DNA from: Branchiostoma floridae
Lineage: Eukaryota; Chordata; Leptocardii; Amphioxiformes; Branchiostomatidae
Length of the DNA: 64,000 nt
Direction: 5' to 3'
Assembly (NCBI RefSeq): GCF_000003815.2
Contig: NC_049985.1
Span: forward strand, 10,924,078 to 10,988,077
Positions 14,843-57,200 of the stretch are shown here, piece after piece. The notes under the pieces are model-generated. The model was not told the DNA's origin, ran no database searches, and was given only the letters and a program-made list of their open reading frames with translations. Position 1 is the first letter of the stretch. Every line of letters starts with the position of its first letter. A program made the translations under genes and the position numbers.

Positions 14843-15595
14843 TTAGATAATTTTCACATGCCAAAAAGGGCTTATTATGGTTTCTGTTGATTTACCTTGA
14901 TCCTGTTTGCTACACGCCAATGCCACAATCTTATTGGCTACGAAGATTCCGCTTGCAACAACGAGAAGCCATACAGTCACGTCCCCAATCATCGCGAGAT
15001 TATGCAAAGTGAATGCCCATAAAAGGATGGGTATATGCGAGGCTACCACCCATCGAAATATGCGGTGGAAGATCAGTTCGACAGAGTACATAAAAATGAC
15101 GCAGACAGCTAGTTGTGTCTGGTGTATAGAAACCACTGTGTCCAGTCCCACGTTGAAATGTCGGACCAGAATGGTGCTGACTGTGGAGGTAGTTTCCGCG
15201 TGACTCCACGTGAGGCTGAAACCCTCGCAGTTCTCGACCAGCAGCAGGTAGCACCAGCGGTGTGCTGTGGACATCTCAGCCATGTGGTTCTCCGCAATGT
15301 TCAGCGTCAGGAACAGGCATGCACACAGGAAGAACGGCGGGAGCATTTTGGCCACACCGGCGGACAGCGGGAAACCATAAAAATCCAAAATGGTGGAGGC
15401 AGCGTTACAGAGGATGCTTACACTGAAGCTGGTGATCACTGGGCTGAGTTCCCGGATGTAGTCGTTCCAGGAAGTTTTGTATACGACCACGAGCCAGTAG
15501 ATTTGAACGACGGCTTGCCAAAAGAACATGAGGGGAAGCAGCATGGGTAGGTACATGTAGGGGATGGTGGTTGCACCCTCTGCATCGTACGGCAT
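14843..15595 (-). CDS. divergent member of unknown seven-helix membrane family
   Basis: One open exon of 250 codons starts at ATG 15595 and ends at 14843. Hydrophobic segments fall at about residues 15-38, 50-68, 78-102, 118-140 and 155-178, plus two further helices before a short basic C-terminus, so about seven helices are expected. It shares with the copies at 17.4, 20.7 and 22.2 kb the central block LLVEN-C-F-LTW, then DTVVS/T-H, VEL-F, FRW-VA and LLWAF/LIWAF. TTTTCCAG lies directly before the ATG, which suggests an intron in the 5' UTR or an upstream coding exon. I do not recognise the family; no catalytic or transport signature is visible. Expression and function are unknown. Confidence 0.75.
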   Translation of the reverse strand: MPYDAEGATTIPYMYLPMLLPLMFFWQAVVQIYWLVVVYKTSWNDYIRELSPVITSFSVSILCNAASTILDFYGFPLSAGVAKMLPPFFLCACLFLTLNIAENHMAEMSTAHRWCYLLLVENCEGFSLTWSHAETTSTVSTILVRHFNVGLDTVVSIHQTQLAVCVIFMYSVELIFHRIFRWVVASHIPILLWAFTLHNLAMIGDVTVWLLVVASGIFVANKIVALACSKQDQGKSTETIISPFWHVKII

Positions 15596-17271
15596 CTGGA
15601 AAATATTTTCGAATTTTTTTGTTAGGTGTGAATTTTCGCTTAAGAGGCTTTCTGTCCGTCTCCCACCCTCTCTCCGATCGATAATGGGCCTCCTATCGGC
15701 GCTCCGTGGTACTCCAGTGGAACGTTCGGTTTTTATGAATAGCTTTCGGAGCAGAGAATACTGGTGTATGTGAGGGCCCCTGGCGACTTTGTTGAAACTG
15801 CAGGGTGCATGAACCGACTATGTTTGAGAATTTGAAAGATCAGCTCAAGAAGTGACGATTTGGGGTATATACCTACATATGTAGGTTACTCCAGCGAAGC
15901 ATCAATTATGCAAATGAGGAAGTCTTTGCCATAGACACGATGTAATACTACATGTATTATAGCAATGCCTTGGTGTTAAATGACGGTAGTTTTATACTTG
16001 GAGCATTTGGAAGTTAAACAAATGTTAACATTATTTGGCATAGATCATGCAAATCAGGGCCTAATTTACATGATCATGATTTATACGTATTTTACGTGTA
16101 GATTCGATAGCAGTAAGCTAACTTAAAGGCTAACGTATTTTATAGATTCGCCGAGTTGCCATGTTAGACATGCTGACCGTCTATTTCGTACAGATGTTAG
16201 CCCGAGCCTATGTTTGTACATATTCACAACTTAACAGATCTTACGATGGGACCTACCTTTTCCTGGTTTTCCTGAGTCTCTGCCCAACCCATATTCTTAC
16301 AGAAAAAGACTCAAAATATTGGCCAAAATATGACCGGCGACCACTCCTGTACAGGGATGACGTGGTGGCAGGGCGTCTGTAAAGTTGTCTGACGAGTCGA
16401 ATGACGTCATAGAGTTTGCCTCGCGGCTCAAAAGGACGAGGCCTTTGTCTTTACCTTTCAGATACATGTTATCAATAAGTCCTCGGCGTCACCCAGAAAT
16501 AATAACCACAACTCTCAAAGCATAGATGTCAAGTATAAAGTCTTAAATGAATGTGTACCAAAAATTCAAATTATTGTGATCATTACTTTGCAGGCGACAC
16601 TCAGTAACGTCAAGTAAGGTAGAAGGGGGAAAACGTGAACAATTGAGCTGCGACTGAGGTGTGCGGGTCAACTTGTAGACGATACCCCACATCATAGCAT
16701 GCAAAATATGTAATGATTACTACTTTTTAAGAACAAGCGACCGGAAAGACTGATGAAACCACCAAGAAAAAGTTGGCAGTGCCGCTGTCTTTGCTTTTAG
16801 GATTCCTATCAGTCATATACGTGATGTACAGTGGAATAGTAGTGGATAAGATAGAAACGACGCAAAGGCATCAAGTACATTATATTATTAGTACAATAAC
16901 ATATATATATAACAAATTACGCAAGTGTCGCGGTAGTCTATTCGTTTGCCTGCAATGAACCTAAGAATCTAAAGCTATTTTCGATAACGAGTCAACCAAC
17001 CAACCATCACCAACCAAACATGTCAGACTGGTAGGTAAGGTCATAGGTCGAAGGTTAAGGGCTTATTAAAGTAAAAGACATAAATTGAAGTAAATGAAAC
17101 AGTGCGTTTTACTTTACATATACAACTGTCTCGTAATAGCTTATTTCTATGTTCCAATGTACATTTTTAGACTCGCATTTGGGTGAAATTAGTAAAGGCG
17201 TATTACACCGTTTATGATACAATGTAGTGGACAACGAGTGAATCGAATGCTGCATAAAATCACAATACACT
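15596..17271. other. intergenic sequence between cluster members
   Basis: No gene is supported. Part of it (about 16919-16980, gcaagtgtcgcggtagtcta) is the duplicate of about 19309-19370, so the right half belongs to a duplicated block shared with the next gene unit. Confidence 0.45.
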
Positions 17272-17390
17272 GACTATTTGTTTACAACACAGTAAAAGTC
17301 CGGTTCAAATATCCTATATATATTATTATGTCGGGTTTCCTTGCATAAAATGTCTATCACTGAAACCTTAATTGAACCATATTTTCACGT
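17272..17390. repeat. duplicated 3' flank of the seven-helix gene (copy a)
   Basis: This ~120-bp stretch (cactgactattt, gtcgggtttc, aaatgtct, ttgaaccatatttt) matches 19893-20012. Here it directly adjoins the gene's stop; at 20 kb about 640 bp of other sequence separates it from the next gene. Confidence 0.7.
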
Positions 17391-17394
17391 AGTT

Positions 17395-18204
17395 TTACTC
17401 AAAGTGTACAGTGTTTTCCCATGTACTGCTGGTAGGGGTTTTTAAAATAACTCCTTTCTCAGAAGAGTCTTGAAAGTTGTTTACAAGATCTGAGTCAGTG
17501 TCAATAATTTCTAACAGCTGATCTTCGACAAATTCCTCTCGCTTACCTCCTTGAAAAAAGTAGGGGCGACTTCGTGTTACCGGAGCAACCTTCGCGAACA
17601 TGACGAGCGCGGTTAGGACGAGTAGGCCGTACAGAAACGTGTCGTCCACACCGCTAGCACGACGGAGACAAAACGCCCATATCAGGAGGGGAGGGAAAAA
17701 CGCTACTGTCCACCTGAATTTATCACGGAAGACCAGCTCAACTGTGACAGTAACAAGGACGCCGATCGCCAGTAGGACCAGGTGAAGGGTCATCACGGTG
17801 TCCGGCACGATATGGAAGTCCTGGACGAGCAGCTCGCTGACCAGCGCCGCGGTCTGGACGTAGTTCCAGGTCAGGTTGAAGGCCACACAGTTCTCAACCA
17901 ACAGGGCGTAACACGCGCGGTGACAAAGGGACATTTGGTGGGAAACCTGCTTCTCCGTGTTCTCGAGCGTTTTGTGCGTAACGAGCAGACATCCAATCAA
18001 AACACACTGATTGAGAACCTTCACTAGCACTGCGTAGGGCAAGTCCAGTGGAAGTACAGTTACCACCCAGTCACACAGTGCGCTTAGACAAAAGGTCCCT
18101 ACGACCAGTTCGGGGTTGGGAGGAATATAAATGTTCTCCCAGGAGTCCCAGTAGATCAGAGCCGCCGCTTTCCAGACGACGCAAACGATGGTTGGAGCAT
18201 CCGC
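17395..18204 (-). pseudogene. seven-helix family copy lacking its start codon
   Basis: The frame is open over the whole length homologous to the copies at 20709-21479 and 22243-23013. Relative to them, a 6-bp deletion at the start removes the ATG (GTCGCCATGGCGGAT becomes GTCGCGGAT). A second in-frame 6-bp deletion removes two residues of the first loop (WLRDSW becomes WDSW). Upstream in frame there is a TAA and no ATG; the first internal Met is after the third helix. A small indel near the end also replaces the stop and adds about 16 residues. The unrelated upstream sequence carries two tandem GTAAGTACTG units. Either it is a young pseudogene, or it uses a non-AUG or spliced start. The lack of internal stops means decay is recent or selection persists. 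Confidence 0.7.
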
Positions 18205-18564
18205 GACAACAGTACTTACCAGTACTTACCAGCGCCAGTTCCGTGTTTTCTTGTGTGAAAAGGTCGGAGGTCACTATTTACACTGTAAATCGTGAAATAT
18301 TCGAGGAGCTTTTATGTTCATGTTTCCTAAGTTTTGGTGGTGAACTTTGGCCGTTAAACTCGTCCTACTGTGAACACATGTGCTACTTTGCTTCTGTAAT
18401 GCCGCTGTGGGTCTATAACCATAATCATCTGGTGTATTTTGCCAGCCAGTAGGTACCTCAAGTATGAGTAATGAGGCTGTTTAACGTGGTCGAGGCACCT
18501 CCTCGAGCACGGGACCCCCGTTTTACGTCCCTCCCGGAAGACGATTTCGTGGAAAACTTCGTGA

Positions 18565-18684
18565 GGCTACAGCAATCCGGACGTCCTTGGTTGGTCCCCC
18601 ATCCAAGCACTATCCGGACCGCGCGTTGCTTAACGTCCGAGATCGAGGGATCGGGTGTACCAACGCGCCACGCGGCCATAATAC
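18565..18684 (-). rRNA. 5S rRNA-like sequence (pseudogene or 5S-derived SINE)
   Basis: Read on the - strand, this ~120-nt segment follows the 5S rRNA order: TATGGCC near the 5' end, GATCTCGGACGTTAAGCA (box A region), GTGCTTGGATGGGGGACC (box C region) and TTGCTGTAGCC at the 3' end. Length and spacing match 5S rRNA. A TTTT run follows about 10 nt later, as RNA polymerase III termination needs. The 5' and 3' ends pair imperfectly and the loop regions differ from typical animal 5S, so a diverged gene, a pseudogene or the head of a SINE3-type element are all possible. Confidence 0.75.
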
Positions 18685-19479
18685 TACATTGTTTCCACTG
18701 CTAAATTGAATGTGTCAGAGAGCGCCTTCTAACACCTGATACTGTAGATAGGGTTAAGTTCTCACAAACTTGGAAAATATTTACAGTAAAAACCCGTTGG
18801 GCAGTTTGGGACCTTGTCCATCATGTGTTAGAATTGATCTTTTGTTGTCATGCGCTGACGGGCCATACATGTAGGTCTCTAATTACAGTCAGCCTGAGGC
18901 TTGTTTGAACCGTCAACCTCCTGAGGTGAAGGTCTTGCAACATGATTGGTGATGTAACACTATGTTTTGAACAACTTTATGTCTAATCTTAGGTTCCACT
19001 GATTGGTAATTCTTTGGTAACAAATAAAAACAGTGACACGAAAGGAGAATGAGATATTCTAACGGTCAAGAACCAAAAACACATTGACTTGTGAGCTCAC
19101 ATAATATCCATTTGGGCAATCTCTACTATTTATTCCAGCCTCGAAAGAAGTCTGACGGAAACTTCTAACGATTGAAGACATTGTCATGATGTACAAACAG
19201 CGCTCGAGGCAATGCAATGATAGGTCAGGGTCTAAAATTTGAAGTAGGATCGTTAGAATGTCGGAATGGGTTACTTATTCATTATAGAGGTATTACAATT
19301 TATCGGTCGCAAGTGTCATGGTGGTCTATTTGTTTATTTGTAACTAAAGAATCTTCATCTATTATACAATCTTTATTGACACGACAAAAGTACAGCAACT
19401 TTCGTAAGGTCTACATGTATAACAACTACTTACAGTACAACTTAACACATATATATGGATATCTACAGGTATGGATACA

Positions 19480-19896
19480 TCAACATAAAGGGTCTAGCAT
19501 GTAATTTACACTATTGGTTCTACGGTATAAACAATCGTGGATATATTTGCCTACTTGTACACAGTGAGGATTATTGCCTCCCAGGATGTAGTTAAGTTTA
19601 TCTATCGAACAGAGAATAGCAAATTCTTTAGAGCAAGCTGAAAGTAATGTGAACAGCTCTGTGCGTTTATCATTATAACGAGAACAATCCATAACAAAGT
19701 GACGTTCGTCTTCGATCTCATTTGGGCAGAATGGACATAACCTCTGGTCACGGGGAATTTTCGAAAATCTTCCGGCTTCTATATTTAGTTTGTGACTACA
19801 GATTCTCATCTTTGTAATTGCTCTACGAAGTTCGAAATTGTGTACATTCGAAAGATACTTCTTTTGTCCGCATCTTTTCTTTAGCGTAGAATACAC
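19480..19896 (-). mobile_element. LINE (non-LTR retrotransposon) ORF2 C-terminal fragment
   Basis: This is an open frame of 138 codons. Its peptide has the pattern RRAITKMRICSHKL, then ETGR-like EAGRFSKIPRDQRLC, then CPFC...DERHFVMDC, which is the zinc-knuckle-like tail that follows reverse transcriptase in many animal LINEs. The RT and endonuclease domains are absent, so it is a 5'-truncated dead copy. It lies inside the block duplicated from 16.9-17.4 kb, so it probably inserted after that duplication. Confidence 0.8.
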
Positions 19897-20012
19897 TGAC
19901 TATTTCTTAACAACGTAGTTAACGATTAGTCCGGTCCAAACATCCTACATATTGTTTTGTCGGGTTTCGGTACATCAAATGTCTTTCACTAAAAGCACTG
20001 TTGAACCATATT
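19893..20012. repeat. duplicated 3' flank of the seven-helix gene (copy b)
   Basis: Match to 17272-17390 with scattered differences and small indels. It marks the duplication that created the 17.4- and 20.7-kb gene units. Confidence 0.7.
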
Positions 20013-20640
20013 TTTAATGATAGCATGCAGGATCATAACATGATAGTATATAGTGGATATATGTGGAGAAGGAGACCTCAAGCCAATCGTTCACACTTAC
20101 GCCACATCTTCAGAAAAGACGCTGGAGCCGCATGTTCCCCGTTTAGGAACTTTATTCGAACCGACACACAACAAACATGTTTCGCCGTGTGGCTTCCTCA
20201 ATGTTATGGGCTCGAATGAGCATAGTACAGCATGTCCTCGCTTTTATAGGCCTAGTGCAAATTGCACTGACCAGATGCAGGGTGCCATAGGTGGCTTAAC
20301 CAATCACAGTACAGCAAAGTAGTGCAGTCTGCTCTATAGGAGCATTACATGTCACATGACCTCACTTGACCTTTAAAGAATGACTTTATCTATTGTTCTA
20401 GAAAAATCATACTTGTCACAAAGCCAATACATAAACCAGAGAGCCCGATGTTGTTTCTCGTGTTGTCTGTGCCGCAGTTGTGCTGTCTTCTTGCTCTGGC
20501 ATTGAAGCTCTGGCGTCTCAGCGCTGCAGGCTTTACCAACAGTGGCGACGTCTTCAGGCTCTCTTCTTTCGCTGTGAAGTCTTGATAGTGTATAGTGCTA
20601 TCATGAGCAAAGTGTATGTATAAAATACATCATGGAGTAT
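20013..20640. mobile_element. inserted repeat, retroelement 3'-end-like
   Basis: It interrupts the duplicated flank. Read on the - strand, 20140-20220 contains GAGGAAGCCACACGGCGAAACATG, a pattern like the 3' tails of Penelope-type or related retroelements that I also see near 49780-49830. No coding domain is present, so the class is uncertain. Confidence 0.35.
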
Positions 20641-20708
20641 TCGGTATCACCCAAGGTACCCTTTACTCTGGTCTGCAGTGTTTACCTATGTACAGCTGGC
20701 AAGGGGGT

Positions 20709-21479
20709 TTAAACAACTCTATTCTCAGAAGAGTCTTGAAAGTTGTTTACAAGATCTGAGTCAGTGTCAACAATTTCTGACAGCTGATCTTCAACCAATT
20801 CCTCTTGATTATCTCCTTGGGAAAAGTCGGGACGACTTCGTGTTACCGGAGCAACCTTCGCCAACATGACGAGCGCGGTTAGGACGAGTAGGCCGTACAG
20901 AAACGTGTCATCCACACCGCTAGCACGACGGAGACAAAACGCCCATATCAGGAGGGGAGGAAAAGACGCTACTGTCCACCTGAATTTATCACGGAAGACT
21001 ATCTCAACTGTAGCAGTAACCAGGACGCCGATCGCCAGTAGGACCAGGTGAAGGGTCACCACGGTGTCCGGCACGATATGGAAGTCCTGGACGAGCAGCT
21101 CGCTGACCAGCGCCGCCGTCTGGACGTAGTTCCATGTCAGGTTGAAGGCCACACAGTTCTCAACCAACAGGGCGTAACACGCGCGGTGACAGAGGGGCAT
21201 TTGGTGGGAAACCTGCTTCTCTAAGTTCTCGAGCGTTTTGTGTGCAACGAGCAGACATCCCATCAAAACACACTGATTGAGAACCTTCACTAGGACTGCG
21301 TAGGGCAAGTCCAGTGGAACTAAAGTTGACACCCAGTCATACAGTGCACTTATACCAAAGGTCCCTACGACCAGCTCGGGGATGGGAGGGGTGAAAATGT
21401 TCTTCCAGGAGTCCCTGAGCCAGTAGATCAGAGCCACCGCTTTCCAGACGACACAAACGATGGTTGGAGCATCCGACAT
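20709..21479 (-). CDS. seven-helix membrane protein, intact copy
   Basis: Intronless 256-codon gene. I chose ATG 21479 (MSDAPTIV) because the upstream in-frame codons begin only at a GTG and the paralogue start aligns here. Predicted helices at about residues 6-21, 35-52, 59-80, 100-125, 138-160, 165-182 and 192-210; the C-terminal 45 residues are hydrophilic and acidic (EELVEDQLSEIVDTDSDLVNNF). Conserved block ENCVAFNLTWNYVQTAALV carries a possible N-glycosylation site NLT. It is nearly identical to the next copy and shares about 70 bp of 5' and 60 bp of 3' flank with it; both units are bounded by TTTACTC direct repeats. Family not recognised; a lineage-specific receptor or channel is only a guess. 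Confidence 0.8.
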   Translation of the reverse strand: MSDAPTIVCVVWKAVALIYWLRDSWKNIFTPPIPELVVGTFGISALYDWVSTLVPLDLPYAVLVKVLNQCVLMGCLLVAHKTLENLEKQVSHQMPLCHRACYALLVENCVAFNLTWNYVQTAALVSELLVQDFHIVPDTVVTLHLVLLAIGVLVTATVEIVFRDKFRWTVASFPPLLIWAFCLRRASGVDDTFLYGLLVLTALVMLAKVAPVTRSRPDFSQGDNQEELVEDQLSEIVDTDSDLVNNFQDSSENRVV

Positions 21480-21545
21480 GGCGACAACAGTACACGCCGA
21501 CGACAGTTGAGGCACAACTAGTCTTCCAAATAGCCGCTTTTACTC

Positions 21546-22196
21546 TGAGCTGCTGGATTTAATGTTGGAACCGGTCAGACGCTTCAGATATCATCTGTCA
21601 TCTTTTGTCTAGGGACATGTTGGGCGGAACGTGCTTCAAGGTGGCCTGAGGCCAGTACTACGTGAAAGCCACCTCTTTGATTCCAGACGAGACAATTGAC
21701 GGTTAAAGCACACATACATATTATGTCAACTTTCTAGCAAATTGCAGGTTTTTTACTGGTACGATAATGTTGAACATAACCGGTGTCCTGATGATGCGTT
21801 TCAGTTTTACACCGTGGGTACGTTCTGTGTTCGATCTGAGACGGGTAATGCCCGCTGATCCGTTACGGAGTGACTTTTGTCTAACCCGCCTAACTACTGT
21901 GCTGTGCAGGTGAGGTAAGCCGTATATTATAAGCTTAGGTCAAAGTGCATCAGGGAACGTCGCACATTAGATCAAACTGAGTACCTGCGTGATCACTTGT
22001 CTTGAGGCACTATTTTAGCCAAGTCGTATAGCCTTTGTTAAGGTGGGTTCACAGTTCGCGCGTGCGTATATATTCAAGTCCGTGTACGTACGTCTTAGCC
22101 TCTACCAGGCTCCTTGGGGCGCTGGAAAAATAATAGATTACAACACGGGGCATTCCATATCACCCGAGGTACGGCCCGACCTCGGATAAAACATCA
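21546..22196. other. intergenic spacer between the two intact copies
   Basis: About 650 bp between the direct-repeat-bounded gene units. No reading frame, RNA gene or clear repeat is recognised; this should hold the promoter of the 20.7-kb copy. Confidence 0.4.
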
Positions 22197-22242
22197 GTTT
22201 TACTCAGTCTACAGTGTATTCTCATGTATTGCTGGTAGGGGT

Positions 22243-23013
22243 TTAAATAACTCCATACTCAGAAGAGTCTTGAAAGTTGTTTACAAGATCTGAGTCAGTG
22301 TCAACAATTTCTAACAGCTGATCATCAACAAATTCCTCTTGCTTCCCTCCTTGGGAAAAGCCGGGACGACTTCGTGTTACCGGAGCAACCTTCGCCAACA
22401 TGACGAGCGCGGTTAGGACGAGTAGGCCGTACAGAAATGAGTCATCCACACCGCTAGCACGACGGAGACAAAACGCCCATATCAGGAGGGGAGGAAAAAA
22501 CGCTACTGTCCACCTGAATTTATCACGGAAGACCAGCTCAACTGTGACAGTAACAAGGACGCCGATCGCCAGTAGGACCAGGTGAAGGGTCACCACGGTG
22601 TCCGGCACGGTGTGGAAGTCTTGGACGAGCAGCTCGCTGACCAGCGCCGCGGTCTGGACGTAGTTCCAGGTCAGGTTGAAGGCCACACAGTTCTCAACCA
22701 GCAGGGCGTAACATGCGCGGTGACAGAGGGACATTTGGTCGGAAACCTGCTTCTCTAAGTTCTCGAGCGCTTTGTGTGCAACGAGCAGACATCCAATCAA
22801 AACACACTGATTGAGAACCTTCACTAGCACTGCGTAGGGCAAGTCCAGTGGAACTTCATTTACCACCCAGTCACACAGTGCACTTATACCAAAGGTCCCT
22901 ACGACCAGCTCGGGGTTGGGAGGAATATAAATGTTCTCCCAGGAGTCCCTGAGCCAGTAGATCAGAGCCGCCGCTTTCCAGACAACACAAACGATGGTTG
23001 GAGCATCCGCCAT
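22243..23013 (-). CDS. seven-helix membrane protein, intact copy
   Basis: Intronless 256-codon gene starting at ATG 23013 (MADAPTIV, in a CGCCATGG context). Same seven hydrophobic segments, same acidic tail (EEFVDDQLLEIVDTDSDLV) and stop as the copy at 20.7 kb; the differences are scattered substitutions, many conservative, which suggests purifying selection. It lies about 760 bp upstream of that copy in the same orientation. The flanks gttttactc (22197-22205) and cttttactc (23071-23079) bracket the unit. Confidence 0.8.
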   Translation of the reverse strand: MADAPTIVCVVWKAAALIYWLRDSWENIYIPPNPELVVGTFGISALCDWVVNEVPLDLPYAVLVKVLNQCVLIGCLLVAHKALENLEKQVSDQMSLCHRACYALLVENCVAFNLTWNYVQTAALVSELLVQDFHTVPDTVVTLHLVLLAIGVLVTVTVELVFRDKFRWTVAFFPPLLIWAFCLRRASGVDDSFLYGLLVLTALVMLAKVAPVTRSRPGFSQGGKQEEFVDDQLLEIVDTDSDLVNNFQDSSEYGVI

Positions 23014-23771
23014 GGCGACAACAGTACACGCCGACGACAGTTGAGGCACAAATTGCCTTCCGAATAGTCGCTTTTACTCAAGCAGCCAAAGTATAGAAGA
23101 ATTCTTTGATGTTACTGTCTTGATAAGGTCACTACTATTGTCACCATCCTTGAATAGGCCTATTCGCGCGATCGCTTTTGTGGATCGGTATTTTTGTCTA
23201 TTGTCTCACTAACCTCGCCGCGAGCAAGGCGGGACAGGAGAGGGCAAGAAGACCGGGGCTGTGCAGTAAATCTCTAATTGGTGCACACCTCACCTCACCC
23301 CAAACATTCTCAGCTTTCAAAACAATGCCGTCGAAGTAAATAAGGTGAAGTCTGTACCTGTGTAATATTATTTCTGGAAATCTGTACTTGAGGGCAGAGA
23401 TCAAACTAAGAAATATTTACAAAGTCCAACTCTTCATCAAGAATGGTTTAATGATGATGACCTTTAATGCCTGCTCTCGATAGAGGCTTTGAGCTAAGGG
23501 TATACTAACAATGTTGCATTGCACAAATTTGGTTGCATAGTTTTGTATTGAATGAATTTCCATCCACAAGTTTATCCTCTAGCACCAACACATCACATTT
23601 ATCTACTCTTGATGTTGTTAGATGTTCAGTAGGCGTAAAATATTTGGCATGGCGTGTTGCACAGCAATGTTCTTGTCAAAGGTCAACGTCCGAGCAGATG
23701 TTGGGGATAGAAAATCAAGAAGCAAACATCTGCAGTTATTTTGTATCAATGAACTTAGGAAAAGTCTGTCG

Positions 23772-26700
23772 TCAAAACGTCCGACTGGCTCCTCCTATGG
23801 GCCCGACTTGGTCGGCTAGACGTTTCTCCGTCCTGAACGGTTCTATGAAAGAGCCGGGGACCATCATCTTGTAGGCAGGTACGGGCCCGGGGTACCGCAG
23901 GGTGTTACTGACCGTCCACTCACGGGCTGACTCGTCGTACACTTGAACCTTGCTGACGTAGTTCATCTCACCGGAAACTGGAAAAATACGGGGAGAGTGA
24001 AGAGATGGATGGATGGGTAATTTGTTGTTGAAATCAGACAAAAATCAGCGCGAACACAGAGTTATCATGACTAATTCTCTCATGCAAATACGGCGAGAGT
24101 GAACACAGATGATATGAATGGATGGATATTTTGTCTTTTAAATTATGCAAAAAGTAGCACGAAAACAGAGCCAATGATGATCATAGTAAAACTAATTCTC
24201 TCATATTCATTCTCTGAAAGTTTGCACCAATTTCCACCCGTTGTTTTCATGTTGATCTTTAGGTTCACCACCATTTTCAAAATTTTGTGGACCACCACAC
24301 CTGCGTGGGGCTGTGTGGTGTTAAGATGCACTCTCACCGCACTTGTGTCAAGCTTGTGTCAATGTGGGGTTCGTTAACTGCGTCACTGTTTTGTTATTTT
24401 CTCCGATTTTATATAATTCTATATACACTATATACACTATAATTCTCCGATATTGCGTAATACGTTAAGTATGACTTAGAATACAACAAAATACAAAAAA
24501 AGTAAGAAATATTTAACTCTGACGCAGTGACGCAAGCGTGACGCAAGCGCAGTGAAAGTGCATCTTAATGAGCAATGAAGATACAGACATGCTACTCACA
24601 TGTGCTCTGGTCACCCCCGAGAACCGTCATGTAGCCCTCCACGACCACGGCGCTGCACAGCCCGGCCGGTACTCTGAGCGGCTCTATGAAGCTCCACTGG
24701 TCCCGCTCGGGACTGTAGCACTCCACCACGTCTAACGGCTCGTTATGGGTCCGCGACAGGGACGTGTAACCTCCTATGGCGAAGATCCTTCCGCTGTACA
24801 CCTACAGGTATGAAAGAATTTTGTTGATTCACAGCTGTATAAGAGCGTTTCACTAATAATTTTACCAACTTCTACAAAATTATCTATTCTACAGGTATGA
24901 AAAGAACACATTGCACATGGATGAAGATAACACAAACAACGTAAACTTTCTTACTAGCAAATCGGGGGCAAGTTACGTATTTTTCAACGCAAGCTTAAGA
25001 GAGTGGACCAACTGAGTAAAGCCTTGCCCTCCGCCTAAAGAACATGCCTTTGGAGGCTCTGTTTATTGTTTATTAAACTTTTGTGGGCATGGCCTGTATA
25101 ACCAGCTGTCAGCCAATCAGGGAATCGTTTACGTGGTTCTCTGATTTGCTGAAAGCTGGTTAGAGGCCATGTCCTCAATAGTGGAAACCTCAGCCCGCTT
25201 TAGCAGGCCTCCCTATATGATAGCCTGTGTTTACACAAGCTCTCGTCGGCTGGGCTTAATGACCCCCTCCCCCCTAGGGCGGCGGCAATCGTAGGGCCGG
25301 CCGCTAGGGGCGCGATTTTAGTCAGGCTACCTATATGATATATTGTATAGGCTGCGGGCAAGGGCCTGTGTAGAACAATAATTTTTAATAATCTGATTTT
25401 AAAAATGTCTATACTAAACTATAGAGACCTGCAATTGTGTGTTTTGATTGTGTTTCATATGTAATTTTTGTCCGGGACTGATTTCTAACTGATCCCACTG
25501 CACCCCATGCTTTGAATGCACCATCATCCTGACCTGACCTTGGTACTGAAAGTGCTATTCAGCAGAAAATGCCATGTAGTATTACTCACCTCCATGGCGT
25601 GGGAGAACCTTGCCACGTGCATGGCGCTCCTCTCCGACCACATGTCCGTGAGAGGGTCGTAGCAGTAGACTGTCGCGGACATGGTAGGGATGCAGGACAT
25701 GTTCACGTTCAGGGTCAGAGAGAAGGCTGCCTCCGTGCGTTTGATCCACCCGCCCGACACGTACAGTCGGTTGTTGTACACGCAGGAGGCTTGGCACCGC
25801 CGACCGTCGGGAATTTCCGAGCAGGGCCACCACAGGTTTTGTATGGGATCAAACCGCTCCACTGAGGACAGGATGCTAGTGTCCTCGTGATCCTCGTCCC
25901 CTCCAACCGCGAAAAGGTTCCCTTCGATGGCGTCCATAGAGAAGCAGCTCCTTTTTGTCGACAAGCTGGAGACTTCCCGCCATTTCGCTGTCCTCAGGTT
26001 GTAGCAGAAGGCGGCGGCGGACCACCGGTCGTATCCGCGCGCCTCCTTGTCCCACTCCCTTCCCCCGACTACGTAAATCTCATCGTCCAGCACGGCTGCG
26101 CAGTAGTTCCTCCTCCGGATGGGAATCTGTGTCATCTCGTACCACGGCTTGTCTCCGTCAGGCGACCTGACGTCACAGAAGCTGACGCAAGTCCTCTGGA
26201 CTGCGGGCCGCTCGTTATACATTAGTCTCCCTCCCACCGCCAGAACCACTTCCCTTGACGCTCGGCAGATCGTGGATTCTCGGGCAGTTTCCGCTGAATC
26301 GTGTCGCCTAGCAACGTGTTCGCCTCCTAATGGTCTGGTCGCTGGGATACCAAAGTTGTCCTCTGCCGGGATACTGTCGATATTCAGGATGCTGGATATT
26401 TCGTCGAGGTACTCGCTTCTCTTGGGATCTCTCGCAACCCATTTGTCTGACATCTCGCACAGCTCTCGATCGGTTGCTTTAACCCAGTCGTTCGACAGCA
26501 ACACAATGAGCTGATCGCAGGACAGTTCCAAAAAGTCGTCTGATTGCGAAGCTTCGATCAGGTTGTTGGTCACGTGGTTCTCCGCGAAATCCTTCAATTC
26601 GTGCAGGTTGAGCGCGCAGGCCAAGTTCCAAATCCCGATGCAGTTGTTCATGTGGATGTTCTCTCTTAGATAAGAGCAGCACATGTCAATCACTGCGTCT

Positions 26701-27041
26701 ACCTGGAGATAACAAGCAGTCGCCAACACGTCTTCCTTATTCTCGTCGTTTAACGTGAGATCTCCGCTGTACAGAAAATCCAATATGGCAGAGAGCCCTC
26801 TAGCGGTCGTGCCGTGCATCTCAACCGTCGTCTCCTCTTTTTCTCTCAAGTCGATTGAAAACATTGACCTGAAGTAGGGGCAGCATGCGGCCAGGAGAGT
26901 CTTGTGTGATCTGAATTCCCTTTTTTCTGCGACCAAACACACGTCACTCAGCAGCTCAGTCTGGTAAAGTTCCCTAAATCCGGCGAGAACTGAGGAACCA
27001 TGGGACGCCAGGGAAAACTTGCGTTCGTTTATTTTCTCCAT
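23772..27041 (-). CDS. Kelch-like protein (BTB-BACK-Kelch)
   Basis: Three exons, 25590-27041, 24600-24801 and 23772-23977, join in phase 0 and phase 1 with GTGAGT donors, giving 619 residues, the usual KLHL length. The BTB domain is at about residues 20-130 (LLSDVCLVAEKREFRSHKTL, LLAACCPYFRSMF, DFLYSGDL). BACK is at about 135-240 (CIGIWNLACALNLHEL). Six Kelch blades follow, with GG doublets in AVGGRL, VVGGRE, AVGGDE, VSGGWI, AIGGYT and VLGGDQ; the last two cross the exon junctions. Such proteins are usually substrate receptors of Cullin-3 ubiquitin ligases. I cannot assign a specific KLHL orthologue. ATG 27041 opens the frame just before BTB. Confidence 0.92.
23981..24210. repeat. two-copy diverged tandem repeat in KLHL intron 2
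   Basis: Units of about 100-115 bp share cggggagagtgaa/cggcgagagtgaa, gatggatgg, aaaat...agc-cgaa-acaga and actaattctctcat. The first begins next to the acceptor of the last exon. Confidence 0.6.
24321..24568. mobile_element. 248-bp foldback MITE with TTAA ends
   Basis: Left arm TTAAGATGCACTCTCACC (from 24321) is mirrored by the right arm ending GTGAAAGTGCATCTTAA at 24568; the arms pair over about 38 bp. TTAA at both ends suggests a TTAA-targeting (piggyBac-like) non-autonomous element. Its right end is about 30 bp from the donor of KLHL exon 2. Confidence 0.7.
25045..25375. mobile_element. MITE-like palindromic repeat, family member 2
   Basis: Arms at about 25085-25124 and 25137-25176 are inverted copies (ggcatggcctgtataaccag against its complement). 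The following gtggaaacctcagcccg and tatattgtataggctgcggg match the element at 5.2-5.4 kb. It lies in KLHL intron 1. Confidence 0.7.
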
Positions 27042-29856: not shown

Positions 29857-30264
29857 TTATAGTCCTCTTGGGAAGCGATAGCCCCGCTTGACGAACTGAT
29901 GTGCGATGGCGTACACGGCAAAGATGATCGCGATGTTCCCCAACAGGTGCCAGCAGAAGGCCAGCGGCAGGAACATGAGGGTGTTGTGTGACTCCAGGTC
30001 CCATCTCCGGGCCGTGTCCAGCGGGTACAGCACACCTGCCACCTGGGGGACAAACAATTACCAAGGTTATCTAAACAATCCTCTTCATAGAATATGGAAT
30101 TATCTGGGAGGGAAGTCTCCGGATTGTTTGTTGCTCTGTGTACCACTCTCTTCCTTTCTCAGTGTGTGCGTGCATGCGCGCGTGCGCGTGTGTGTGTACG
30201 AGTGTATGTGTGTGTGTGCGTGAATCTGTCTGCCATTGTGTGCGTGGCACCTCTGATATATATA

Positions 30265-30339
<75 letters not shown>

Positions 30340-33300
30340 CTCGAAGCGAAAGTGTTGAGCCAGCGGTCACTACGGCGTAGGATGGCACTCAAGCTATGTG
30401 TGTGTATCTTAACTTTGTGAGCCAAACTCTTACGTAAAAGAGCTTATTAATAAGTTATTGTTAGCAACATAAATAAACCTTAACTACTGAAAATTTCCTT
30501 ACCTGCCAGAACCATGTCCCCTGCAACAAGATTAGTGTCGATAGAAGGAGAGGTAACAACTGACTCTCTGGTAGACACGCCCACAACATGGCGGCTACCG
30601 CAGCGCCAAATATGGCGATAAACAGGAGTTGGTGGAGGCGATCTTCAGCCTCGGACCCTCCTGCACAGGGAACAGAATACATGGTGCAGGTTTGAATAAT
30701 ACAGTTCACATAGACAGATGATCTACGCAAGCCAGACCTAGTCTCGTGCTCTCTCGCGAGATCGAGACTAGGTCACTCTCCGTGAATAAGATGGACTGTC
30801 AGCCGTCAAAAATTTGGAGGTATGTACCTTACCTTAAAAATAGTAATTGCTTGAAGAAAATTTGGAGTCACTCTATTCATACGTGACTGATGAACCTCTT
30901 CAACGAAGTTCACAAAGACGTACTTTACGCTTATGTTTTGATAATGGCATACTGTAAAGAGATATTGTGAGATAGAACCACTTGTATCAAAACTTCACGG
31001 TTGAACAGGATATCAAAGGTCTACGCGAAACATTTTTAGTTCTTGTGAATCAGTTGTTTTATTCGTTACTGTGAAATTCTCGTTAATTCTGTCAAATGCA
31101 TTCCCCACTATTGCTCTGATAAGGCAACAGACACAAGCATATAGCAGTAACAAAGGAAAGCTTAAAGGAGAAAAACTATTCTGGGACATTTTGGGACCTT
31201 CTCCGACGTGCCTTACAGGTGGAAACTGGCATACGTGGGGATCCTTTTAACCCAAAATTTGACCTCCACTTCCCCTTCACTTCCAGTCACTCCACTACAT
31301 GTGAGTTACAAATGCACACACAAGCAGACCTACCATGTACACGCGGGTGAAAATGACACATCTTACCTTCATGATAGAAGAAAAAGTAGGACTCGACGAA
31401 CAACGCCAGACTCATGAAGAACTTGTCGCTGTTTGGTGGAATCGGTGACTTCACTCTGACCAAGATGTCCACAAGCCTGTACGGGCAGGAATCAAAGTAC
31501 AGTCAAATGTCTGGTCAACATTCGAGCTTCAGACAACACAAACATCACACAGCACATCCCGTTTGTACATATAGTCCGCCGTAACTGTTAAGTGGACCTT
31601 GGTGTGGCGCTTTGAAATATCATATACTTGGTTGGACAGATGAAAACTTCAGTTATTTCAGGCTGCTGCTTTCATATGTAAGCTTCTTCTTGCATAGACC
31701 TGTTGACGAACCCACGGACTTTGAAAAATGGTAGGTTTACAAAACCGCCACAGTCCCTGATGTTTGGGGCTTTTTGACTAAGAATACTTCTTTTCTTACA
31801 CACCAAAAGAATGGCGATTTTCAGTAGCATCTTAAAGAAGACCTACCCCGAGAAGAAGAAGAAGGAGAACATGGTGACCAGCTGCCAGTCGGCTTGTTCC
31901 ACAAACTCTCCCGTGACCGGGTCACGAAGCCTCCAGTGGGCGCCCAGAGACATCTGGCTTAACATTCCTATATCATGGGAAAAAACGCACACATATCTAT
32001 AAATAACGTTGTACATATATGATTTATATTTTTCAAGTGATTTGCCAAATATAACATATACAACGTTAACGTAAATGTAGCTAATGTTTTGTCAGAAGAG
32101 TCAAAACTCCCCAGTTGTGGTGTTGAAGATCTAAGATCATCTAACTAGATCTATTCAACACCAACCAATCTGACAACAAAAAAGCAAACCCACCAACTAA
32201 ACAAACAAACAAACAAGCAAACAAACAAACAAACAAACAAACGAGAAAGCCCTTACCTATCGTACAAGAGATGATCTTGAACATGGGATCCATGGAGTAG
32301 AGTAGGAATCCCAGCGTACGTTTGGCACAGCCCAGGTGATCTCTCCATGTCTTGTTTCTGGCAGGCTGTTTCCCCTGTCCCTGTGTGTGGAGCCTCTCTA
32401 GCGTGAGGAAGCAGGTCTTCACGGCGTACCACAGCCCGAACACGAAGAAGAACGTCCCCAGGACGGCGTGGCTTCCAAACGTCCCCGATCCCGAATGGTC
32501 TATGGATGAATGAATGAAAAATGCCTTTATTGTACATGTATTATTATTGTAACCCGCAGGGTTAAGAACATGTCGCAACAATAGAATAGTTGACACTCAG
32601 ATACGTGAAGTCAGATACTGTACAATGTTAACCAAAACAACTGTATTCTAATAAGTGACTTCATCTCAGTTCTTTGTGAAACTGAAAAATTAATGTAGAA
32701 AAAGATATCTTCTACAATCAAAGGTTTGCCTAAATTCTTTAGGAATATGAATTTACCTCAGTCTGTTAATTATGTGTGTGAAGTAGGGAAATATATGTTC
32801 TATCAGCTATATCTATAGACAAATAAAAGATATCAATGTCTGCGTTATATCTAACTATAGACTTTCTGTACAGTGATGACTGCCACCGCGTCAAATGCAA
32901 ACTGCCAATGCCTAAACTCCATAACAGACTCTACCCCGTTGTTTTTATTTTGCCGTTTTTGTTGAAGTCATACTGTTTTCTGCTTGTTGTCGTTTCCGGA
33001 TAGCTCCGGTTTTCTGCAAAATTTAGTGGCTTCCATAACCACCTCCTACCTGCCGAAAACAGTGTACTTCCAGCAAAAACTACAGGCGTGCATCTCTTCT
33101 GATATGATAACAAGGAAACCCCAAGCCGCCTGTCTCATAACCGTTGCACTTTTGTGTACGTATATCCATCGTTTATTCCTGTCAGAAGTCACAGTAGCCG
33201 TCACTGTTGTAATCCTCTCAGGCGATCAAAGACGACATAATCCTAACATAAGCTCTAACCCAGGATTATTGTAAAGGTCGCACGGATGTGACCCTGCTGC

Positions 33301-51200: not shown

Positions 51201-54200
51201 CTAAATACTGTTTGCCACTTGTTGGCATTGCAACAAGAATGCCATCCAAAGATGTAGCCATGTGGCAAGGACTATAGTAGAGTTTATCAATGCACTGCCA
51301 TCATCTAAGAGCAGCTATATAACATCAAACATAGGGTCACAAAAAGATGTCAACTCTACAATCAACGTCGAAAGCTGTGACATTTGTTGTACACTTGTCA
51401 CAGGACCAAAATACGGGGCTTTCTTGAGGTACAGTAATCCTTCAGGTGTGTATCTATCTTTAAGTTGTAGATACTTTTTGGCAGTTAATTTTGTCCCAGT
51501 GTGCTTGAAAATGCTATGATATAAATTTGACAATCTACAAGGAACGTGATGGCAGCCTTACCTATACAGAGCGTGCAGTACACCACGCAGTCTGGGAACA
51601 CCCGTGGGAGACGGCTACACTCCACGATGGTGACCTCCAGCTGACCCACCGTGACCTTGTTGTCATGGAGATAGACGTCGTCGGGAGCATTCAGCTGCTC
51701 CTGATAGTCGAAGAACGGTTTGAAGCGCAGCTTGTAGTACGGCAGGGTGTGCTTCTTACGGACGGAACGGCGGATCTGGAACAGAAGGGACGATTTTTCT
51801 TTTCTTTTCTTAGCACACAACAGGCCAGGTGAAGAAATTAGAAACAAGTACAGAAATGAAACACAAGATGATCGAATCTGGGCAACAGACTGAGCAATAA
51901 TGAACCAAAAATCTTCTTGCTGATTTTTCCTGAAATAGAATTATCTTGACAGCTCTTAATCAAATTAAATGAATACATTTGTGAATTACAATAAAACTCA
52001 ACACACCTGGACCAAGGACTTACCTACATGTATCTTGTACCACATTACCCTGATTATGAACATCTTGAAGTTCAATATCAAGAAAGAAAACAACAAACCA
52101 ACCATCCAGGCAACTTACCCACCAGGCCACCAACCATTAATAACCAATCATTATAAACAAGGTAGCATTTAGTACTTTTTTAATTACATGACTCAGTCAT
52201 CACAACAGAAGGTACTTTTCACAGCCAAAGGTAGTGACCTAGAACCTATGACAGGATCAACAGGAATGTTCACCTTGTGAGAAAACATTGTCTACAACTG
52301 TCTACATTTATGTTGTGTACCCAACAATGCCTAAGGAATGCAAAACACACAAAACTGCAGTCCAGCCAATGGCACAACCATTCCCCTGTTGACGTACATT
52401 TGTATTGGTTATGGACTTAGAAGCGAGACAAAGTCATTTGTATCTGTTAAGGTTTCTTATGAGTGCTTTTGGCTGTGATCCCATATGCATCCTGGCCCTG
52501 GATTCTTCCTTTAAGTTAGTAACTTTTAAGGCTGTAAACTTGATACTACCTGAGGCATGTAACACGATAGACTGTCCTGGCAGAGGGTTATGCGTTGATT
52601 TAACAAAAATTACTGATAGACGTCATTCTCATCTCTACACTTCCGTATTTTAGCAACCAGAATTCTTATGTTGTGGTGATGACACTGTGACAGGGTGAAG
52701 GATGTTGCTCAAGACAGACTTACTTGTACTAGAGAAGTGCTCAGATTGAAAGGAAAGATCATTCATAAGGTGTGTGCTTGTCTTCTTAGAAACCTTCCTT
52801 TTTTTAAGGTCAATATATGTCTCTAGACATGTTCCTAGAAAATGGATGAAATATTTGTTTCAGAATAAAATGTCACATACTAGTAGTCAGGGACAAATTA
52901 AATGGAAAACAGGCCCTGGGACACTCATTACGAAGGCTTTATCATTGCAACCACTTTCTGACATTGTCTGACAAGGGATTGTAATAAGTCCACAAATAAT
53001 TGCTATGTTAAGGATATCTGTTTTTCCATGGTCATTGTATATACAATCACTATGATAAAATGGCTACCGGTATAAGACAGTTATGCCAAACCAGTTACTC
53101 AAGCAACTTGATATGATTTTGGTAATGGTCAGACATTTCACGTAGAATCCACTACAATAACCTTTCCTCAGTCACTATAAGCTTCATTGACAAAAAAAAT
53201 ATTGTAATGTTTATCATAGTTATGCCTTCAGTTTAAACAAATGCCTGTCAGTTTCCATTAACATTTACTGTTATATCAATTTCTCCAGAACCAGTCAATC
53301 TAATGAGTATAAAACTTTCAGTATTCGATAATATCTGACAACTGGAGTAATTTGCATTGATTTTCTTTGCACCATTGTACAGACCGTGACTCCTTGAACC
53401 ATGTATTTATTATTCAGCACACATTAGGCAGGCTGTGCTCAGCAGTTTATATGAAGCTTGAGGATTTTGGTCAAGGTAGGTGTAAGTCTCAGTTCTCACA
53501 TTTTTTTAAAGAAAAATAAATCTCTACAAGTACAACTTACAGTACTATACATAAGAGCAATGTTTATCTATATTCTAACAAACTCTCAAGCCAAATGTGT
53601 CTGACTTAAAAGGAACTAACATGATCACAGACATCTAATTCAGCATGAATGTAAAGCTAGATGTATTACTATTAGGCCAAGACTGTTAACAGAAGACAGC
53701 CAGCTTTCTTCAAGAGTCTCAGTGAATGAATTCAATATGAGTACATGTCAAGCCCATGGTACTTCATTATTTTTCCAGAAAAGATGTCCGCTAAGCTTCA
53801 GAAGGTGCTAGTGTTGCTGTTGATGCTCCTGCAGGATTTGCAGCTAACAGGAGCATCTTGCAGCTGTTCAGCATCTACCTGCCACTGCGACAGCCAGAGA
53901 CTTGCCAGCATACCACAGGACCTTCCAGTGTCTATCACATACTTACGTTTGGAATTTGATAATATTACAGCCTTACGCACTACAGACTTTCCAAGGTACA
54001 GAAACTTACACAGCTTATACCTACCAAGAAACCATCTGACTACAATCCACAGCAGGGCATTTTACTGCCTGATTAACTTAACAACCTTAGATCTTCGCTG
54101 GAACCGTTTGACATGTCTCGGGGCTGAAACATTTATTGGGCTTGGTAGCCTGGAGATACTTAACCTTGACTACAATGATATCAGTACCATTGAAGAAGAG

Positions 54201-57200
54201 ACCTTCAGTCCAACTCCTCAGCTTGTTGTGTTACTTCTAGGGTCGAACAAGCTGACATCGATCCCACAGGGCAGTTTTAGAGGTCTCACCCAGCTTCAGA
54301 TGATAGACTTGTTCTCAAACAAAATATCTGAGATTCAGCTGGGCACATTCTCAGATCTACCTCGGCTACAACACCTGTACTTGTACCAAAACCGGATAAC
54401 GGACATTCAACCAGGCACGTTCTCAAATATGACTCAGCTCCAGATTCTGTCCTTGTTCTTCAACAACATGACTGTTGTTCGGTCAGGCACACTCTCAAAC
54501 CTACCTCGGCTCAAAGAGCTGGACCTGGACTTTAACCAGATTGCAGAAATTCAGCCAGGTGCGTTCTCCAACCTGCCACAGCTGCAGCACCTGGGACTGG
54601 GACACAACAGAATGGAGTTCCTTCCCTGGACAGTCTGCTACCAACTGTACTCGAGATCTAGATCAGTCCGTGTGACTCTTGACAACAACCCCTGGAATTG
54701 TGACTGTAGGATGGTTTCCTCCAAAGTGGAGATGACCAAGTATTGTCCCTCAGAGACAATAGACCAGATTACATGTGCAGGACCAGCCAAGTTGTACAGA
54801 CAAAAGCTGCAAGATGTTGCACCTACTGATCTGAACTGTTTAGAACTGACTAATGCTGCAGCAGACAAACATAGCTTGCCATGCCACTTTACCTATATGC
54901 TGATGTTTTGTGCTTTTGCTGTAGAATTAATAGCTAATTGACATAACCCTTAAGTGTCAAGTTTGATGAGAAGATAACAAAACCCTCAGTCAAGTCCAGA
55001 ATTGGACCTTACTTTTTGCACATGTAGCATCATCAACACAATACATGATGCAGGCATACCGCATCGGCTACATGTAAGAAAAATCTAGATGTTCAGATGT
55101 ACACAGTGGAATGTCCCAGCCAGTTGTCAGAATATCTACATCTATAAAAGGCTTATTCTTTATTTCAGATGACTAATTCAGCCTTGCTAGTATAATTCTT
55201 CATCATGGCCAGCATTGTGTATGGAAAAAAAGTACTGGACAGTTAATACAATTAAATGTTTTAAGTAACAATTTTTGTAATTGCATTTTTCTTGATTCCA
55301 TAAGTGTTAGTCAGTTGCTTCAATAACATTAATGTAATCATTTATTTATTGTGCACATAATCTGTGTCATGTCCGCCACACACTCAACTGACCTTCAAAT
55401 CTCAGAACTGCCATATTTTTGTACAGCGACCTAGATACCAGTTTTCAGTGATCAATTACATTTATCACAAGAAGAATTATACTAATTCATAGAACATGTA
55501 AAAATACTAATGTATAAAACAGTCAAATGTTTTGACAATGCCTTGTACCAGTTTGTACCATAACCCAGCATTCTTCACATGCATGCATGTGAAACCAAAC
55601 CTGTGTCACTGTTGTTGTTGTATAAACATAAGGAAACTACTAGTACTGTAACACCTTTAGAACAGGTGTAACAAGAAAAGGATGTCATAAATATATTACA
55701 ACTAAAAACAAGCCCACATGGTTTCAACATTTTTGTTCACGCAATACTAATGCAAAACAATTGACTAAATATATTCAATTTGAAAACCACTCTTCTAACC
55801 ACTGCTTAAAATACAAACATTAAAACTCTTGAAAGAAAACAAACAGCTGTTACTTATTCTGGCATGGTCAGTGTGTTACTTAATTACTATGTTGTCTTTA
55901 GTTGCTAATTACGGAGTGGACAATACTAGTAAATGACCAGGTGTACCAGATCCCCCCCCCCACACACACAAACACCTTTGGCGAGACAGACACAATAGGT
56001 TGTCAGGTGACATTCTTTGTCCTGACACGCCCCAGTACACCTGAAGCAGCAGTCACAGAAGGCGGGCGGCATCACACGACGGGAGGGGAAACAGTACGTA
56101 TCATCTCTATTTTTTTTCATCAGATCTTGTTTCAACAAGATATGATAAGTCACCTGGACTGACTTGGAATCTGTGGATCCTTGTGACTGTGTATATAGTT
56201 GGCAGACAATAGAAATTATGTAGAAATATCATGTAATGGTAATGGTTAGCACAATTGTTTGTACTACAAAAATCTAACACTAGTCATCTTTAGAACCATC
56301 ATGGGCAAATTTGACATGTTCAGAAGGAGGTGTTGAAGTTGAAATGTGATCATGTTGTATCGTGTAACACTCAGTACATGCTATAAGGTGAGAATGGGGG
56401 GCAACAACATTAAATTTTATTATGTGACAGTTGAAAAGGACCCATCTTGTGTACAATATACTGAAGCTGGGGAGGGGGGCAGGTCAGAGCTTTGGCAGGG
56501 GAAAATCACTTAGTTTTGAGCAGAATACCTAAGTTCAAATGACCATTTAGCCTTCTCACAATGTATGATGCAAAATGCAGATAAAACTTTCCAGTTACTG
56601 GTCTAAGACCACTTTAAAAATGTATTTAGCCACCAGCAATCTGTTGCAATCTGTGAGCACGTCTGCCTTAATCAAAGATAATGACAAATTGTCACAATTT
56701 CTATCTCTTAACATCACGTTGATGGCATACATTTACTGCAAGCCATGTAAAATTGTCTACACAAAACTGTCAAAATTTAACTATACAAACAAGAGGTCCA
56801 CTTACTATAAATAGGTACTACATGTAATTTTAGAAGGGTTCTGTTTTCTACAGACAATGTCCCATTCACACACCAGTCTACAACAGACAACAAACACTTG
56901 GCTGGTACAATTGTACATGAAAGACAGCAGACAGCTACACAATTTTGATAAACCTCACAGTGATTCTTGAATTGGAACTGTAAAAGGTTTAACAGAGAAG
57001 TTTTTCCTAGATGAATCCCGTTTCTTAATTTCACATGACATTACATGTAAATGTAACATGTACCTTTTGTTCAAATGGTCAGAGCAGAATACCTAGAGTC
57101 AAACATACTTTCTCTACAAAAAGTACAATGCATGTAGTTCTTTCTCTCATATTTTCTGGAACTGTTAGCCTACTAGCAGAATACATGTTTTCAAAATAAC

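Follow-up and report, generated by a model that had tools for sequence, protein, structure and literature searches.

The 64,000-nucleotide stretch of the Branchiostoma floridae genome analysed here (hereafter the window; contig C7, positions 10924078-10988077) carries between positions 14843 and 23013 a cluster of homologous open frames belonging to a small, fast-evolving multi-pass protein family, which is real and has no recognised relative in the libraries searched. An earlier reading of this DNA from its letters alone (the sequence-only reading) had placed four related genes here. Four homologous frames are indeed present on the minus strand, but only three are complete from ATG to stop, namely g1 (14843-15595; 250 residues), a divergent member, and g3 (20709-21479) and g4 (22243-23013), both of 256 residues. 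The fourth, g2 (17395-18201), has an otherwise open frame without a start codon: relative to its sister copies, a 6-nucleotide deletion spans the ATG position, helix 1 loses two residues to a second 6-nucleotide deletion, and the frame ends in an altered, extended C-terminus. Its first in-frame ATG does not occur before about codon 90, an in-frame stop lies upstream, and the 223-residue open reading frame listed for it starts with GTG; g2 is probably a decaying copy. The g3 and g4 copies are 89% identical, g2 is 88% identical to g3 and 92% to g4, and between g1 and these copies identity is 31-38%, a range that reflects the alignment used.

Searches of the organism's own genome (513 Mb) with g4, L006 and g1 as queries returned 10, 9 and 12 rows, respectively, and the same nine loci emerged from all three; one broken copy accounts for two of the g4 rows, and three g1 rows with E of 0.36 or worse were taken as chance. 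The family thus comprises at least nine loci, four in the window, two on C9 and three dispersed on C2, the count being a lower bound because the search tool scores only the best candidates. On C9, an intact copy (C9b; 7975350-7976117) is accompanied by the broken one (7977104-7977647), which has lost its first 83 codons and carries a frame change. The C2 genes L006, L007 and L008 (near 4.60, 9.65 and 12.81 Mb) possess ATG-initiated frames of 239-247 residues, and open frames are retained in paralogues that are only 28-37% identical. Profile comparison with hhalign gave probabilities of 99.7-100% between family subgroups (99.7-99.8% for g1 against the others), so their common origin is secure. 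In the tree, rooted at the midpoint only, the three C2 genes group together (support 93/94), as do the young C7 and C9 copies (99/98), and g1 sits on a long branch.

The genes had been described as intronless, and their coding part is indeed a single exon, but a probable consensus splice acceptor directly precedes the ATG in g1 and in the three C2 paralogues. In all four, the bases immediately 5' of the ATG are CAG or TAG and close a stretch that is pyrimidine-rich in most of them (in g1 a putative acceptor, ttttccag, at 15596-15620 on the minus strand); the background rate of YAG before an ATG, over both strands of the window, is 81 in 2662 (3%). The three C2 acceptors are not independent, since these genes resemble one another, and neither g3, g4 nor C9b has an AG directly before its ATG, g2 having no ATG at all. 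A non-exhaustive survey of the three coding-strand frames of L011-L014 and the window brought out no upstream coding exon common to them. The ancestral gene probably consisted of a non-coding first exon, joined by predicted splicing to one coding exon.

The young copies were duplicated at the DNA level. A block on C9 matches the window over genes and flanks alike: L014 2820-4183 corresponds to 21719-23078 on the minus strand (92%), which spans g4 plus 65 bases on its 5' side and about 520 on its 3' side; L014 3304-4367 corresponds to 20662-21722, also on the minus strand (91%), covering g3 with about 240 bases upstream; and L014 4684-5625 corresponds to 21823-22765 (89%). Because this block includes flanking DNA, the young copies spread as DNA and not as processed transcripts. 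Homology between g3 and g4 ends 66 bases 5' of the ATG and about 45 bases 3' of the stop, limits that resemble those of an mRNA copy and had suggested a retrocopy origin; we reject this for the young copies, as the C9 block extends into flanking and intergenic sequence, and it is unlikely for the old ones because they keep a splice acceptor before the ATG. A segment just downstream of g2 (17264-17385) is repeated at 19890-20014 (78%), at a distance of some 700 bases on the downstream side of g3, which looks as though other material had been inserted behind that gene.

Seven hydrophobic segments had been proposed for these proteins. In an alignment of eight members, weighted hydropathy peaks at 8-24, 36-52, 62-78, 100-116, 114-130, 145-161, 168-184 and 194-210 (g4 numbering); since the fourth and fifth of these eight maxima overlap, seven predicted helices are a fair reading, but a stricter scan of individual proteins gave only 5 or 6. 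Lysine plus arginine counts were taken for seven members (in the order g4, g3, C9b, g1, L006, L007, L008): N-terminus 0,0,0,0,0,0,1; loop 1 0,1,0,2,1,0,1; loop 2 0,0,0,0,0,1,0; loop 3 3,3,5,1,4,5,5; loop 4 0,0,0,1,1,0,0; loop 5 3,3,3,2,2,1,0; loop 6 1,1,1,0,1,0,1; tail 3,2,3,2,2,5,1. Basic residues thus lie chiefly in loops 3 and 5 and in the tail. The N-terminus, loop 2 and loop 4 each lack them in at least five of the seven members. By the positive-inside rule, and mainly on account of loop 3, this pattern leans towards an outside N-terminus and an inside C-terminus.

The statement that no known family could be assigned to these proteins held up against Pfam, NCBIfam and PDB sequences, none of which yielded anything above chance, and three families guessed as relatives were negative by hhalign. 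At E<=10 the only Pfam match among eight proteins was DUF6057, seen in four of them far below its cut-off (E 0.17-2.7), and the family consensus had zero matches. Among NCBIfam models, the best hit of the four window proteins was one for a potassium channel, at E=0.019 and with 13.9 bits where the cut-off is 425. Against PDB sequences g4 gave a single chance row (E 0.44) and two profiles, one of them built from the eight members, gave none. No confirmed relative of g4 was found in the phage collection, and none of the 18 stretches of the prokaryote genome_contigs and 462 of viral_contigs that fit a pattern with the A2 query encodes one. No such family is named in the titles and abstract openings of the papers listed by literature searches, which is not proof of its being undescribed.

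Could the family be an offshoot of multi-pass proteins already known in animals, such as TMEM45/DUF716, the XK-related (XKR) proteins or others, that has diverged beyond the reach of sequence profiles? TMEM45 proteins (PF04819) are likewise multi-pass and of similar length (about 250-290 residues), and a clear member is encoded close by in the window, likewise on the minus strand. This multi-exon TMEM45-like gene (29857-32540, minus strand) has one exon with a clear match (30461-30772; E=5.8e-12), and another below the family cut-off (29857-30057; E=0.0005); three more probably lie upstream, near 31287-31502, 31843-32091 and 32141-32540, all on the minus strand. Resemblance to TMEM45 motifs and the presence of this adjacent gene had suggested TMEM45 as a candidate; the coding region of TMEM45 is multi-exon, unlike that of the family, and against five TMEM45 proteins from the same genome the profile comparison reached just 0.7%. 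At E<=10, neither the eight members nor the consensus matched PF04819, and the nine loci are absent from the 11 rows found for that model in the same genome. XKR proteins (PF09815), which are multi-pass and multicopy in this genome, came into question through an EN......W motif of that family, seen by eye. They are longer (a 337-position model), and hhalign gave 0.4% between the whole family and 19 XKR frames, drawn from 45 matching stretches of which 20 were read as frames (L038 was dropped). None of the nine loci is among the 45 PF09815 rows of this genome at E<=0.01, nor did any family protein match that model in Pfam. XKR genes are numerous on C11, C7 (4.12-4.19 Mb), C2 and other contigs (loci L024-L053), several as long single frames. 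TMEM26 proteins (PF09772), also multi-pass and multicopy here (33 matching stretches), fared no better: the probability was 0.2% with four partial proteins, and none of the nine loci is among the 33 PF09772 rows at E<=1.

Across family subgroups, comparisons with these three families reached at most 1.4%, much as in control pairs of unrelated families (0.1-0.7%; XKR against XKR gave 98.7%). The resemblances to XKR, TMEM45 and TMEM26 noted by eye are no better than chance, and hhalign chose other alignments than those. As the effective number of sequences behind the family profile is only about 2.2, from eight proteins, very distant homology could be missed, and among animal genomes the searches covered this one only. 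With such motif-like resemblances and limited sensitivity on one side and chance-level profile scores on the other, we consider an offshoot of this kind somewhat unlikely, though it is the strongest of the alternatives.

Of the conserved core quoted in the sequence-only reading (VENC..F.LTW...DTV..H....VE..F...FRW.VA), most is invariant in g1-g4, but only part is so in the eight aligned members: L006, for example, differs at C109 and W116, L007 differs at H144, and L007 and L008 have FQW or YQW in place of FRW. Residues invariant in all eight proteins include H98, R99, E107, N108, E159, W168 and K208. Four of these (E107, N108, E159 and K208) fall inside or beside predicted helices, as might be expected if the proteins were not receptors but lipid-handling enzymes, transporters or channel accessories. 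H98 is the sole invariant histidine, though, and no aspartate is invariant, unlike in metal-binding membrane hydrolases; nor did any transporter or channel family score above chance, the potassium channel model cited above being the best. A non-receptor membrane role of this sort appears unlikely.

The protein had further been held to be under selection, its intact copies differing mostly by conservative substitutions. The latter does not apply to g3 and g4, which show 31 non-synonymous against 14 synonymous differences, including K>E, L>E, I>N and R>G. Ratios of non-synonymous to synonymous substitution rates (dN/dS) by the method of Nei and Gojobori (NG86) were 0.74 for g3-g4, 0.40-0.41 for g2-g4 and 0.60 for g2-g3 within the window, 0.67 for g3-C9b and 0.85 for g4-C9b, and, for the C2 genes, 0.74 for L007-L008, 0.50 for L006-L007 and 0.51 for g4-L007. 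Fisher tests on the NG86 site counts gave p=0.38 for g3-g4, 0.13 for g2-g3 and 0.005 for g2-g4, the last deviation not being upheld by maximum likelihood (ML; p=0.12). In ML codon fits of ten pairs, an omega of 1 was rejected in four and not in six. Neutrality is rejected by the deeper pairs L006-L007 (omega 0.46, p=8e-5) and g4-L007 (0.50, p=0.0019); g1-g4 and g1-L007 reject it as well, but these are saturated, with runaway branch lengths, and their estimates mean little. The six that do not reject it include g3-g4 (1.04, p=0.9) and L007-L008 (0.79, p=0.23). The recent copies change fast: in the five recent pairs fitted, omega lay at 0.59-1.17 and never differed from 1. The claim of selection is therefore borne out by the deeper pairs but not by g3 and g4, whose dN/dS is inseparable from 1, and a value near 1 is what the sequence-only reading itself had named as counting against it. 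That the copies are no longer functional, their open frames merely not yet broken, is highly improbable: g2 is without a start codon, one C9 copy is truncated and frame-changed, and the g3-g4 and L007-L008 ratios do not differ from 1, but six loci besides g4 (g1, g3, C9b, L006, L007 and L008) keep frames of 239-256 codons, with dS of roughly 1 or more separating the main groups of the family, and two deeper pairs reject neutrality.

The sequence-only reading had listed a receptor, a channel and a lipid-handling protein as candidates. The reading that we favour, with a probability of roughly one in three, is that the family encodes compact, fast-evolving, surface receptor-like proteins, about 240-256 residues long, that probably cross the membrane seven times, with the N-terminus outside and the C-terminus inside, in a birth-and-death family. 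An ancestral gene, its first exon non-coding and all its coding sequence in one further exon, would have given rise to young copies through local and inter-chromosomal DNA duplication, some of which would then decay. The middle of the protein would be held, and the N-terminal helices and the tail would change faster. The product would act as a receptor-like molecule at the cell surface, chemosensory or immune; this is our guess at the likeliest single function, and any ligand would be a guess in turn. Like amphioxus G-protein-coupled receptors (GPCRs), the family proteins would have seven helices and an N-out/C-in orientation, with which the hydropathy maxima and the charge pattern agree for the most part; unlike them, they are smaller and show no Pfam receptor match in eight members. 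A survey of amphioxus GPCRs did not find the nematode and insect chemoreceptor classes there (PMC2246102). Uneven rates are suggested, if weakly, by several pairs when residues 61-210 are set against the rest, a split picked after the data had been seen and with uncorrected p values: dN/dS was 0.31 versus 2.0 for g3-g4 (Fisher p=0.022), 0.34 versus 1.89 for g3-C9b (p=0.032) and 0.40 versus 0.74 for L006-L008 (p=0.026).

Several observations weigh against a receptor-like protein of this description. In the comparison of middle and ends, only these three of ten pairs fall below p=0.05 and seven do not reach significance; the two parts do not differ in L007-L008, and in g4-L007 it is the middle that is, if anything, the faster. 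The near-neutral rates of the recent copies are compatible with decay as much as with diversification. A chemoreceptor family would be expected to have more copies, and no receptor or GPCR family was matched in Pfam at E<=10 by the eight members or their consensus, or in PDB by the eight-member profile. As to topology, loop 1, inside in the model, has only 0-2 basic residues and adds nothing, loop 5 of L008 has none, and in the tail acidic residues equal or outnumber basic ones in six of seven members. An AlphaFold2 model of the four window proteins was unusable (mean predicted local distance difference test score 36.5). A more specific version, in which these are undescribed small seven-helix cell-surface receptors, born in lancelets, unrelated in sequence to described receptor families and diversifying at the N-terminal helices and the tail, is very doubtful.

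Other features of the window include a full-length 5S ribosomal RNA match between g2 and g3 (18564-18683, minus strand; 45.7 bits), perhaps a 5S pseudogene or a short repeat derived from 5S. A 138-residue frame (19480-19896, minus strand) with a CPFC...H...C pattern and no Pfam match resembles the tail of a reverse transcriptase of a long interspersed nuclear element. A BTB-BACK-Kelch gene occupies 25524-27041 (minus strand), and the frame at 23772-24041 on the same strand reads like its last exon, which would put the 3' end of that gene beside g4. Further along, on the plus strand, leucine-rich repeats are encoded in two long single frames, 53745-54941 and 57520-59409, of which the latter also has an Ig domain.

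According to a comparison of amphioxus with vertebrates, 4559 amphioxus lineage-specific orthogroups have no vertebrate counterpart, which is attributed to vertebrate loss, new genes or missed homology (PMC9673378); given such a count, a multicopy family without a recognised relative, like the one described here, is an ordinary find. Should it prove real and be expressed, the family would add a multi-pass protein without a known relative to a chordate genome, together with a small, clean case of birth-and-death evolution.

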